From Symbiobacterium thermophilum IAM 14863 (GTDB lineage Bacteria; Bacillota; Sulfobacillia; Symbiobacteriales; Symbiobacteriaceae): 64,000 nucleotides of DNA. A program made the position numbers and the translations under genes. Positions 20,238-47,589 of this stretch are shown piece after piece. Location: NCBI RefSeq assembly GCF_000009905.1, contig NC_006177.1, positions 2,542,001 to 2,606,000 on the forward strand, written 5' to 3'. The stretch's first letter is position 1. Every line of letters begins with the position of its first letter. Under the pieces are notes generated by a model that saw only the letters and a program-made list of their open reading frames with translations, was not told where the DNA came from and ran no database searches.

Positions 20238-21512
20238 TCAGTCGCTGGCGGACAGGCGGTCTGCCGAGTGCCGCCGGAACCGCCGCTGCCTCCGCCGGGC
20301 CTGCAACCGGTCGGTGGCGATGACCGCACCGCACAGCGCCGCGCCCGTCGCCATCCAGACACCGGCCCGTTGGTACCATGCCGCGGCCCCGGCGCCGGGG
20401 GGCTTTCCCGAGCCCCCATCGCTGTGAGCCGGCGGCTCCGCCTGGGCAGACGCCGTCACCGGCGCCAGCACCGGCTGATGGGCGATCACCCGGCCATCGA
20501 CCAGGGCCTGGACCACCGCCACGGTCCCTTCAGGCCACTCCTCACCCGGCAGCGGCCGGCGGTAGGCGATTTCCACCTCATCCCCCTCCCGCAGCCAGGC
20601 GCGCAGCGGCTCCTCCAGCCGGCCACCAGCACCCGGCAGGTCGCCGGCCGAAAGCACAGTGGTGAGGGAGAAGTCGTACAGACCGTGGCGCAGCAGCCGC
20701 TCCATGTCCGCGTACATCTGCTCCTTGTCCGGATTGCCCAGGAGCACGCCGATGACCTCGCGGCCGTCCGCCGCGGCCGAACCGACCAGGGTGAACAGCG
20801 CGGCCTCGGTGTATCCGTTCTTCACGCCCGTGGCCTCCGGCATGCGTTGGATGAGCAGGTTCCGGTTGTAAATCTCCCGGGTGGTCTCCATCTCGGGCCA
20901 CGGGAACGTGAGCCACTCGGTTCCCGCGATCTCCCGGTAGACCGGATCCGCCATGGCCACCCGGCCGAGGCGCGCCAGGTCGCGGGCGCTGCTGTAGTGC
21001 CCGTCTTCATCCAGGCCGTGCGGGTTGCGGAACTGGGTATCGGTGAGGCCCAACGCCCGGGCCTTTTCGTTCATCTGCCGGACGAACGCCTCCTCGCTGC
21101 CGCCCAGGAAGATGGCGATCGCCACCGCGGCGTCGTTGGCCGACTCCAGGATCAGCGCCTCCAGCAGCTCCCGCAGCGTGTACGTGGTCCCCTGGGTCAG
21201 GTAGACCTTGGAGCCCTCAATCAGCTCCGCCTCCGGCGGGATGGTCACGGTCTCGTCCAGGCGGCCGGACTCGATGGCCAGGAGGGCGGTCATGATCTTC
21301 GTGGTGGAGGCAATCGCCAGGCGTTCGTCGGGGTTCTTCTCCCAGAGCACCTGCCCCGTGGCGCAGTCCATCAGGATACCGGATTCGGCGCTGGTCTCGT
21401 ACCAGGTGTCGTCCGCCGAGGCCGGCAGGCGAAGCAGAAGCGTCAGCAGCAAAGCGCAGGCGATGATGGCCCTGAGCCGCTTCAGCGCAATCTCCTCCCT
21501 GTGTGATGGCAT
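20238..21512 (-). CDS. D-alanyl-D-alanine carboxypeptidase (PBP5/DacF type)
   Basis: A 424-residue low-molecular-weight PBP. After a signal peptide (RLRAIIACALLLTLLLRLPA), the active-site motif SxxK is IASTTKIMTALLAI, SxN is ILESANDAAVAIA and KTG is VKNGYTEAA (KNG in place of KTG). A C-terminal beta domain follows, then a membrane segment near residues 385-405 (GVWMATGAALCGAVIATDRL) that anchors it outside the cell. It trims the terminal D-Ala from peptidoglycan stem peptides. ATG 21512 is used here; a CTG at 21485 has a better-placed GGGAGGAG. The KNG variant is worth noting. It is downstream of the sortase. Confidence 0.9.
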   Translation of the reverse strand: MPSHREEIALKRLRAIIACALLLTLLLRLPASADDTWYETSAESGILMDCATGQVLWEKNPDERLAIASTTKIMTALLAIESGRLDETVTIPPEAELIEGSKVYLTQGTTYTLRELLEALILESANDAAVAIAIFLGGSEEAFVRQMNEKARALGLTDTQFRNPHGLDEDGHYSSARDLARLGRVAMADPVYREIAGTEWLTFPWPEMETTREIYNRNLLIQRMPEATGVKNGYTEAALFTLVGSAAADGREVIGVLLGNPDKEQMYADMERLLRHGLYDFSLTTVLSAGDLPGAGGRLEEPLRAWLREGDEVEIAYRRPLPGEEWPEGTVAVVQALVDGRVIAHQPVLAPVTASAQAEPPAHSDGGSGKPPGAGAAAWYQRAGVWMATGAALCGAVIATDRLQARRRQRRFRRHSADRLSASD

Positions 21513-21828
21513 CCGGGCCTCATCCCACCGAGCCATGAGGACCAGCGCGACGGTGCGCTGGTCCTCAGCCTGTCTGCTGGGGGCCGCTGGTCCTACACTT
21601 CCGCGCCCCGGCTTGAAATCCCTGCATTTCACGGAAGGGTTATCTTGTTAAGAAGGACCACCGGCTGGGGCACGAACACCCAGGGGGCACGGCGGCGCCG
21701 CACCGTCCGCCCGAGCCCCCGCACAGTGGAGACGCCCGGCCGGTGGGGCACACCCCCCGCAACGGGCCGGCATTCCTGTACCCCGCACCGCGCCGGGCGC
21801 CCCCCCGGGCGCGTGCCCGGGCCCCTGC
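21513..21828. other. Intergenic region between sortase and carboxypeptidase
   Basis: No gene is seen. A 12-bp perfect stem at 21537-21566 (GAGGACCAGCGC with its complement) lies in the leader of the carboxypeptidase gene; no T-run follows it. The rest is very G+C-rich with short self-complementary GGGCGC runs. Confidence 0.55.
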
Positions 21829-22590
21829 TCAGGATGCTCCGGCAGTGTGGACCGGTTCGGGGAGGTCTGCAGCCTCGAGAACGCCCCTGACGACGAGGCG
21901 GTGGGTGTTGATCCACTTCGGCGTGCAGGTGATCAGCGTGATCTGCGCCTGTTCCGTGGGATCCAGCACCCAGGTCTCATCCGGCTCCACGACGAAGATC
22001 TCGGACGCCCGATAGACGTAGGTCGCCCCGCCGCTCCGGACGAGGATGGGATCTCCGACCTCCACCTGGTCCAGCCGCAGGAAGAAGGGGCCGTAGATGT
22101 GCCCACGGTGGCCGACGAGGGCGAAGTTGCCCGGTTCACCGGGACCGGCCGTCTCGGCGAAATGCCCCACCGCGTGGCGCAGGGTCCGGTCGTCTGTCCC
22201 CTCGGCGATGGCCACGGTCAGGTCGATCTTGGGAATGGTCAGTATCCCGATGACCTCGGGTCCGGGCGCTTGATCGGCACGGTCCGGTGACTCTTCGCCT
22301 GTGCCGGCTTCCGGTCCCGCCGTCTCCATTGCCGGCAAGCCCGCTCCGGTGTCGGCGCCTTCCTCGGGCAGCGCCGGCGGTGCGCCTGAGGGGGCCGCCG
22401 CGGCAAACGGCCGGAGGCCGGCCAATCCCGGCGCGGTGCCACCGGCGGCGGCCAACGCGGCAACCTCCCGCTCATACCTCTCCATCAGGCGGGCCTGTTC
22501 CCGCCGCGAGACCCCGTTGACCACACCTGCCACCAGGACCAGGAGGCACCCCAGCAGGAACAGGGCCTTCGGCAGATAACGCGCGACCAT
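21829..22590 (-). CDS. Class D sortase
   Basis: A 253-residue protein with an N-terminal membrane anchor (YLPKALFLLGCLLVLVAGVV), a long Ala/Gly/Pro-rich linker and a C-terminal sortase fold. The catalytic residues are visible: His in ALVGHRGHIYGPFFLRL, Cys in ITLITCTPKW and Arg in NTHRLVVRG. IGILTIPKIDLTVAIAEG opens the fold as in class D enzymes. It cleaves an LPXTG-like signal and joins the substrate to the cell wall. The gene lies 70 bases after that of a collagen-like LPAAG protein on the same strand, its likely dedicated substrate. ATG 22590 follows GGAGGCGAG. Confidence 0.92.
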   Translation of the reverse strand: MVARYLPKALFLLGCLLVLVAGVVNGVSRREQARLMERYEREVAALAAAGGTAPGLAGLRPFAAAAPSGAPPALPEEGADTGAGLPAMETAGPEAGTGEESPDRADQAPGPEVIGILTIPKIDLTVAIAEGTDDRTLRHAVGHFAETAGPGEPGNFALVGHRGHIYGPFFLRLDQVEVGDPILVRSGGATYVYRASEIFVVEPDETWVLDPTEQAQITLITCTPKWINTHRLVVRGVLEAADLPEPVHTAGAS

Positions 22591-22614
22591 CTGCGCTCGC
22601 CTCCGTTGCGAAAG

Positions 22615-22651
22615 GCACAGGGGTACACCTACGGCGAGGGTACCCCTGTGC
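22615..22651 (-). terminator. Hairpin between surface protein and sortase genes
   Basis: GCACAGGGGTAC pairs with GTACCCCTGTGC around a 13-base loop; CTTTCG follows on the minus strand. A leaky terminator here would make more substrate than sortase. Confidence 0.55.
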
Positions 22652-22660
22652 GGCTTGCGA

Positions 22661-23659
22661 TCATGGCTGGCCCCGTCTGCGCCTCCGGTTCAGCACGCTC
22701 CACCCGATGCTGGCGAGCATCAATGCGGCTCCCGAGACCATCAGGCCGCCGGTAGTCATCACCCCGCCCGCGGCGGGCAGCTCGGTGATGGTAGGCCGCG
22801 GGGGTTCAGCGGGAGCCTCCGGCGCGGCAGGCGGTTCGGGCTCGCTGGGCGGCTGCGGCAGCGGGGGGCTTACAATCGGAGTGGGTGGCTCCTGTGCAGG
22901 CGGAAGCTGCGGGGTGACGGGTTCCACGGGTTCTGTGGGCTCCTCCGGCTCCCCGGGCTCCGGCTCCACTGGCTCCGGATCGCTGGACGTGGAGGGGCTG
23001 GGCGGCCTGCGGCTCGGTGGGTCGGAGTCACGGGGATCCTCCGGCCTGCTGGGGTTCCCAGGCTCTGCGGGATCCCCCGGATCACCGGGATCGCCGGGAT
23101 CACCAGGATCTCCCGGGTCGCCGGGGTCGCCGGGCTCTTCAGGGGCGCACGGATCCTCAGGCTCGCCAGGTTCCTCCGGTGTGCCGGGATCCTCAGGTTC
23201 GCCGGGCTCACCGGGCGTCCCGGGCTTCCAGGGCTTCCCCGTCCAACCCAACTGGCTCACCTGCTCAGGGACACAAGGTTCCACGGGATCATCCGGGTCG
23301 CCGGGATCCTCGGGAGGGCACGGGTCCTCAGAATCGCCAGGCTTCCCGGGGTTGCCGGGGTTCCCGGGGTTGCCAGGGTTCCCGGTCCGGCCCCGACCAC
23401 CGCGGCCGGCCGTGTCCATCTCTCCGGGCTCACAGGGATCCACCGGGTCATCCGGACCACCTGGGGTACCGGGGTTGCCGGGGTTCCCGGGTGGGCCGGG
23501 CTGCCCGGGGCCTCCGGACCCCCCGGTTTCCGGCCGGTAACCGTGGGCTCTCCGCCGGTCACCCCGGCTTCCCCCCTCGCTGGCCCATGCGTACGGCGCC
23601 AGGGCCTGTAAGAGCAACAGTGCGGGCAGGAGGAGCCCGATCCAGACTTTCCTGCGCAG
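22661..23659 (-). CDS. Collagen-like LPAAG-anchored surface protein
   Basis: From a CTG start at 23659 the 332-residue product begins MRRKVWIGLLLPALLLLQAL with an AWA cleavage site, a full signal peptide; AAAGGGG sits 7 bases upstream. No ATG, GTG or TTG gives a complete signal peptide; the next option, TTG 23617, loses the basic part. The mature part has collagen-like G-x-P repeats (runs of GNP, GDP and GEP triplets at about residues 45-205), then a Pro/Glu-rich stalk. The end is ITELPAAGG, a hydrophobic helix and RRRRRGQP: a sorting signal with LPAAG in place of LPXTG. Four cysteines lie between the repeat blocks. It is likely displayed on the wall by the sortase encoded next. Confidence 0.88.
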   Translation of the reverse strand: MRRKVWIGLLLPALLLLQALAPYAWASEGGSRGDRRRAHGYRPETGGSGGPGQPGPPGNPGNPGTPGGPDDPVDPCEPGEMDTAGRGGRGRTGNPGNPGNPGNPGKPGDSEDPCPPEDPGDPDDPVEPCVPEQVSQLGWTGKPWKPGTPGEPGEPEDPGTPEEPGEPEDPCAPEEPGDPGDPGDPGDPGDPGDPGDPAEPGNPSRPEDPRDSDPPSRRPPSPSTSSDPEPVEPEPGEPEEPTEPVEPVTPQLPPAQEPPTPIVSPPLPQPPSEPEPPAAPEAPAEPPRPTITELPAAGGVMTTGGLMVSGAALMLASIGWSVLNRRRRRGQP

Positions 23660-26557: not shown

Positions 26558-27001
26558 GTGAGAGTCCGGCTATACCCCTGGTTCTGTCCGCCCGCCTTTC
26601 GGCGGGCGTGATGATCATTTATCTCACGGCCCGACCAGACCGTGGTCCCGGATTACTCCTGGGACTGCGTCCTACCCGCGCTCAAAGGCGCCTACTTGGA
26701 CTTGCACCGTGGCGGAGATTGCCCGTGCCACTCCCCCGTCGCCGGGGGACCTGCGTCTCTCTAGCTCGTTACAGGTACAAGCGACTCGCACCAGGCGAGA
26801 CCGCCTTCCCCATCGTCGGCTCGCGCCGCCAGAGCTTGCGCTCTGCGCCAACTTTCTTCCGGCTACGGGTCCTGATGCGTCTGCCTGGGGCAGACTCGGA
26901 CTTCACCGGAAGCGGTGCCAGGAAGTTCCTCACCGGGCCATCCGGGTCATGCGGCTTGCGCCTCCCCATCTGCCCGGCGCGATCATCCACCGAACTCTCA
27001 C
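26558..27001 (-). ncRNA. rnpB: RNase P RNA, bacterial class A
   Basis: Read on the minus strand, the 3' part has the universal CR V/P2 sequence GAGATAAATGATCATCAC, then a GC hairpin and GACAGAACC, the hallmark of RNase P RNA. P1 forms from GTGAGAGTTCGG (5' end, 27001) and CCGGACTCTCAC (3' end, 26558). P2 forms from GATGATC near 26985 and GATCATC near 26613. The 5' conserved region is GGTGAAGTCCGAGTC; CTCCGCCACGGTGCAAGTCC and GGGTAGGACGCAG match later conserved regions. About 444 nt. It is the ribozyme that matures tRNA 5' ends, and it is co-oriented with, and just downstream of, three tRNA genes. Confidence 0.93.
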
Positions 27002-27089: not shown

Positions 27090-27165
27090 TGGTGCGAGAG
27101 CCGAGATTCGAACTCGGGACCTCACGGTTATCAGCCGTGTGCTCTGCCGACTGAGCTACCCTCGC
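27090..27165 (-). tRNA. tRNA-Ile (GAT)
   Basis: A 76-nt cloverleaf with encoded CCA. Acceptor GCGAGGG pairs with CTCTCGC; anticodon loop CTGATAA gives GAT; T-loop TTCGAAT. Last tRNA before rnpB. Confidence 0.97.
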
Positions 27166-27205
27166 ACATTGCGGGCCGCTTCCGATATCGGAAGCGGCCA
27201 GAACA

Positions 27206-27281
27206 TGGAGCTGATGACCGGGCTCGAACCGGTGACCTCGTCCTTACCAAGGACGTGCTCTACCACCTGAGCTACATCAGC
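27206..27281 (-). tRNA. tRNA-Thr (GGT)
   Basis: A 76-nt cloverleaf with encoded CCA. Acceptor GCTGATG pairs with CATCAGC; anticodon stem GTCCT/AGGAC with loop containing GGT; T-loop TTCGAGC. Confidence 0.97.
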
Positions 27282-27287
27282 ACAACC

Positions 27288-27363
27288 TGGTGGACCGCGT
27301 AGGACTCGAACCTACAACCTGCCGATTAAGAGTCGGATGCTCTACCAATTGAGCTAGCGGTCC
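27288..27363 (-). tRNA. tRNA-Lys (CTT)
   Basis: A 76-nt cloverleaf with encoded CCA. Acceptor GGACCGC pairs with GCGGTCC; anticodon loop CTCTTAA gives CTT; T-loop TTCGAGT. First tRNA after the promoter. Confidence 0.96.
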
Positions 27364-47363: not shown

Positions 47364-47589
47364 GTGGTCAGCATACCCCACCATGCCGTGTGCCCGGTAG
47401 AACAATGAACCTGCTCTCCACAGGTGGGTGCCCGCTCCGCTGCTTTCTGAGTCCCCTGACCACGGCCGTGCCGGGGGGGCGTTCAGGCCACATCGGAATA
47501 AAGGCTCCCTTTCTTGAATGTGTTAGGTCATTTCTTACCGGTGATCACGCACATGGTCGGGAGCGCCCTTAGCTTGTGTGCTCTCCCCG
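47330..47589 (-). ncRNA. Candidate structured small RNA of about 260 nt
   Basis: It lies between the Hsp20 terminator and trxA. A promoter (47596-47624) and an intrinsic terminator (47330-47363) bracket it on the minus strand, and no convincing reading frame is inside. Local hairpins are visible, such as ACCTG-tggagag-CAGGT and GCAT-n-GTATGC. It lacks the features of tmRNA, SRP RNA and RNase P RNA; a 6S-type RNA was considered, but the end-to-end pairing was not found. Unclassified. Confidence 0.5.

Follow-up and report, generated by a model that had tools for sequence, protein, structure and literature searches.

Two adjacent minus-strand genes of Symbiobacterium thermophilum encode a proline-rich protein ending in an LPAAG motif and a sortase, which raises the question of whether this enzyme serves its neighbor and what kind of structure the two would build at the cell surface. 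We examined the pair within a 64,000-nt stretch of the chromosome (the window). At a probability of about 0.7, we read it as a two-gene surface-display unit in which the protein's own sortase would anchor a wall-spanning, proline-rich stalk via LPAAG. This reading is grounded in features observed in this analysis, namely both genes, their motifs, the catalytic residues, a homologous pair, a restricted distribution and an intercistronic hairpin; from them we infer covalent attachment to the wall and the shape of the stalk.

Two adjacent genes and their products

The features of the locus, in window coordinates, are:

22661–23659, minus strand: substrate gene, stop included, 332 aa; open reading frame with start context AAAGGGG-7 nt-CTG
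23582–23659, minus strand: signal peptide LRRKVWIGLLLPALLLLQALAPYAWA, with predicted cleavage before SEGG
22781–23524, minus strand: x-x-P stalk region with short G-x-P runs (7–8 triplets) and four Cys; marginal match to PF01391
22766–22780, minus strand: sorting motif LPAAG, followed by G
22664–22765, minus strand: remainder of the sorting signal, comprising a hydrophobic helix and the RRRRR tail, from the sequence and a tail profile
22615–22651, minus strand: intercistronic hairpin with a 12-bp main stem and no T run after it
21829–22590, minus strand: sortase P0001, 253 aa, with N-terminal membrane helix, linker and PF04203 domain; TLITCTPKWINTHRLVVRG
22159–22161, minus strand: codon of Phe144, aligned with SrtE1 Tyr229 and Clostridium perfringens SrtD Phe92 (proposed P3-site residue)
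22108–22110, minus strand: codon of catalytic His161, from alignment
21925–21927, minus strand: codon of catalytic Cys222, from alignment
21898–21900, minus strand: codon of catalytic Arg231, from alignment

Translation of the substrate most plausibly starts at CTG 23659, preceded by AAAGGGG at a distance of 7 nt. Farther upstream the frame contains neither ATG nor GTG, and a start at TTG 23617, the first one listed, would cost the protein part of its signal peptide. If translation begins at CTG 23659, the coordinates 21829–23659 are correct. The product has the layout of a sortase-anchored surface protein, with a signal peptide at one end and, at the other, ITELPAAGG, a hydrophobic helix and RRRRRGQP; its tail scores 12.9 with TIGR01167, under the cut-off of 15.9. 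The mature protein is acidic (57 acidic and 16 basic residues; calculated pI 4.05) and, judged by its sequence, resembles a headless stalk attached to a sorting signal. The order and strand of the two reading frames and the ITELPAAGG-helix-RRRRR tail are thus as a preliminary description of this DNA had given them.

The sortase gene lies 70 nt downstream on the same strand. P0001 scores 118.5 bits with PF04203 (E 1.9e-34; cut-off 26.6 bits) and 85.5 bits with TIGR01076, over its cut-off of 39.35, and His161, Cys222 and Arg231 align with those of 47 relatives, which bears out the earlier claim that the three catalytic residues are in place. By these models, P0001 is a member of the sortase superfamily and is predicted to carry out transpeptidation.

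Its class is another matter. P0001 had been described as a class D sortase, an assignment we do not retain: the class D models NF033746 and NF058671 give 84.4 bits (cut-off 165) and 88.8 bits (cut-off 140), and the neighboring substrate carries LPAAG rather than an LPxTA-type motif. The highest NCBIfam score comes from the class E model NF033747 (117.6 bits, under the cut-off of 160), but P0001 has Phe144 in place of the class E Tyr in the beta3/beta4 loop, and LPAAG stands in place of an LAxTG substrate. The class C (pilin) model NF033745 gives 112.9 bits, again under a cut-off of 160. Because none of the E, C and D models reaches its cut-off, as is the case for most of the relatives scanned, we leave P0001 without a class label. 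A mediocre structure model (mean pLDDT 64, three sequences) has a sortase-like fold and does not settle the class; the top structural matches are class E sortases, and the best PDB sequence matches are pilus-type sortases, with 4d70 ranking fourth.

Relatives of the pair and a second sortase

Among ~400 sampled genomes of the phylum, a sortase in genome G422 matched P0001 best, with 44% identity overall. A tree of 46 sortases joins the two with support of 99/98 and places elsewhere the sortase that is conserved in the genus. The G422 sortase (contig C192, locus L092) lies directly downstream of a 1417-aa adhesin, at a distance of 52–94 nt that depends on the start codon chosen; as its 5.5-kb contig belongs to a bin that is 6% contaminated, the host is unsure. 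The adhesin has Collagen_bind and SpaA domains (Cna/SpaA-type) and closes with a short stalk of acidic Gly/Pro sequence, GEPGGPEKPGDPDEP...ELPKAGG-helix-KRK, with the stalk sequence also given as EGPEEPGEPGGPEKPGDPDEP...ELPKAGG-helix-KRK. Elsewhere in the Symbiobacteriaceae, locus L103 (G003 C170:1-291) encodes a Thr-Pro repeat stalk ending LPKTGG-helix-RRR at a contig end, its front unseen.

The preliminary description also proposed that LPAAG is an unusual motif served by a dedicated enzyme, and asked whether the genome encodes other LPxxG proteins. A profile built from 13 tails, the substrate's own among them, recovered the substrate at E 4.4e-12 and no other LPxxG tail below E 0.18 in a profile search of the genome that falls short of a full proteome scan. 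Searches with TIGR01167 and PF00746 missed even the substrate's own tail, so their silence means little and the tail profile is the better test. A dedicated pair is supported by this result, by the position of the closest homologous sortase beside an LPKAGG protein, and by a second sortase with a candidate LACTG substrate of its own. P0001 would then cut LPAAG; among the papers searched, none combines 'LPAAG' with 'sortase'.

The second sortase, conserved in the genus, lies at 787.8 kb (G000:C1:787814-790103; loci L040 and L113, with orthologues L041 and L106 in G001). The gene upstream of it, also conserved in G001, encodes a product ending in LACTGDG-x-PP-GYYVAGG-helix-RRMGR, an LAxTG-type signal, and this protein is likely the second sortase's substrate. 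In our alignment this enzyme has a class-E-like Tyr where P0001 has Phe144. Tyr229 of SrtE1 has been proposed to favor LAxTG, whereas C. perfringens SrtD, which has Phe92, prefers and cuts LPQTGS and refuses LAETG (PMC5148588); the SrtD operon also encodes an LPQTGS anchor protein. The Tyr/Phe site of SrtE1 has stayed beyond test, the mutants being unstable (PMC5148588). By our own reading of the printed alignment, Phe144 would be equivalent to Phe92 of SrtD, and the contrast of Phe with LP and Tyr with LA in one genome fits the Tyr229 proposal, with Tyr alone not sufficient. A strict rule that Tyr entails LAxTG can be rejected, as Tyr occurs in L069, L072 and L084, whose neighbors carry LPxTG or LPQAG. 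It is possible, though we hold it only tentatively, that the window and G422 pairs form a small sortase clade specialized for LPxAGG, with Ala replacing Thr before the cut.

We found no P0001 orthologue in four other Symbiobacteriaceae genomes (G001–G004), where matches were the other sortase or more distant ones; viral contigs yielded nothing and plasmid records only distant sortases. Codon fit is 0.00 for the substrate and 0.21 for the sortase, against 0.35–0.70 for 26 other window genes, with low-complexity repeats biasing such scores, the substrate's 0.00 in particular. Given the lack of a copy in four relatives and the atypical codon usage, the pair was likely gained by transfer, or else was repeatedly lost by relatives. 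Adjoining the pair, downstream of the sortase, is a D-Ala-D-Ala carboxypeptidase gene (20238–21632, minus strand), for which searches of the two other Symbiobacterium genomes gave no close orthologue (best ~47%). The window also contains a class B RNase P RNA (26568–26994), a type typical of Firmicutes, three tRNA genes (Ile, Thr and Lys; 27090–27363) and a 6S RNA (47371–47565), all on the minus strand; the tRNA cluster is 3.4 kb from the sortase-substrate pair.

Collagen, pilus or remnant

The substrate had been called collagen-like, and a true collagen, whose G-x-P runs trimerise to a triple helix and form a heat-stable surface rod, would be a different object from the stalk proposed here. 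The protein has three unbroken G-x-P runs, but these span only 7–8 triplets each, and PF01391 (collagen) matches it marginally (29.1 bits; cut-off 27.2). Gly at every third residue is obligatory in collagen (PMC7893114), and here the periodic residue is Pro: the longest uninterrupted x-x-P run is 23 triplets (shuffle maximum, 13), whereas the longest Gly-X-Y run is 8 (shuffle maximum, 6), and in the main register Gly comes first in 20 of the 42 x-x-P triplets, leaving about half without it. An unbroken Gly-X-Y frame does exist on the plus strand (22707–23540), antisense to the substrate, with 23 uninterrupted triplets and 42.2 bits as collagen. This score is higher because each CCN (Pro) codon of the repeat, recurring at every third position, becomes GGN (Gly) on the opposite strand, and the uninterrupted repeat is a mirror of the stalk. 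We do not accept the frame as a gene. It encodes neither a signal peptide nor a tail, and it fits the codon usage less well than the substrate does (-0.07 versus 0.00), though this difference by itself is small. As it outscores the real gene as collagen, the frame is prone to mis-annotation. No trimerisation domain is evident in the substrate, and in the homologous G422 protein a comparable Gly/Pro segment forms a short stalk beneath an adhesin. The substrate stalk is therefore probably not collagen; a structural collagen is very improbable, and the earlier label is not supported in that sense.

A pilin-type (class C-like) enzyme would instead polymerise the stalk or link it to other proteins rather than anchor it singly. 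The pilus-type PDB matches, a class C-like TLITCTPxxxNTHRLVVRG motif and the class C model score point this way, but that score stays under cut-off, no second pilin gene lies beside the pair, and P0001 has no C-terminal membrane helix, a class C trait that L088 and other true class C relatives have. We consider this reading unlikely. Similarly doubtful is the idea that the locus has decayed or lost its function and is what remains of a broken adhesin cassette, retained by chance. It would account for the lack of the adhesive head seen in the G422 homologue, the atypical codon usage, the CTG start and the absence from the relatives searched; against it, both frames are open, and the signal peptide, sorting signal and catalytic residues are all intact.

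The junction hairpin and the proposed surface-display unit

A hairpin between the two genes, as had been described, is present, and folding at this junction is stronger than expected (z -3.4). The G422 junction has a different stem, of 15–16 bp, in the same place. Across 19 substrate-sortase junctions, which are only partly independent (e.g. L064, L073, L080, L082, L089 and L092), mean z is -3.0, whereas coding windows average -0.2 (p 8e-8) and the stretches following the sortase gene -1.1 (p 0.002); terminators after the substrate gene would equally yield such a folding signal. The hairpins at these junctions are strong and unrelated in sequence. Their recurrence across unrelated pairs lends support to the idea that the hairpin may set the ratio of substrate to sortase.

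We propose that the first gene gives rise to a secreted, acidic, proline-rich stalk that its tail would retain in the membrane. The membrane-bound sortase could then cleave between the second Ala and the Gly of LPAAG, forming a thioacyl intermediate on Cys222, and subsequently transfer the stalk onto an amine of the peptidoglycan. The resulting rod, stiff and negatively charged, could span and coat the wall, and the hairpin would probably leave the messenger with more substrate than sortase. Such a unit would amount to an adhesin-sortase cassette minus its adhesive head, gained by S. thermophilum or lost by the sampled relatives.

For the biology of the organism the implications are modest, as sortase-substrate neighbors are common and this pair belongs among them; its interest is the Ala-containing motif and the contrast it forms with the LACTG pair. 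If the LPxAGG clade is real, one organism's natural contrast of Phe/LP and Tyr/LA could probe what sets motif choice by sortases, and the presence of both systems in a single genome has a bearing on the proposed Tyr/Phe specificity site. More broadly, sortase specificity is relevant to surface display and protein-ligation tools, for which a thermophile sortase with an LPxAG motif would serve as a useful, orthogonal ligase.

Among known systems, the class E sortases Streptomyces coelicolor SrtE1 and T. fusca SrtE are nearest to P0001 by NCBIfam score and as top structural matches, but P0001 stays under the 160-bit cut-off of that class, lacks the conserved Tyr and adjoins an LPAAG rather than an LAxTG protein. 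C. perfringens SrtD (PDB 4d70) is likewise a single sortase adjoining its presumed substrate, has Phe at the proposed P3 site and has been as hard to classify, having been called D5 or E before a new subclass was proposed (PMC4498605); in contrast to LPAAG, its substrate has Thr before the scissile bond, the two substrates differ, and the P0001 linker is longer. Bacterial collagen-like surface proteins share G-x-P triplets and a wall-sorting tail with our substrate, which differs from them in the brevity of its Gly-X-Y runs and in having Pro, not Gly, as its periodic residue. The G422 pair, finally, matches that of the window in its sister sortase, gene order, LPxAGG motif, acidic Gly/Pro stalk and junction hairpin, but its substrate carries a long adhesive head, whereas the S. 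thermophilum protein has none.
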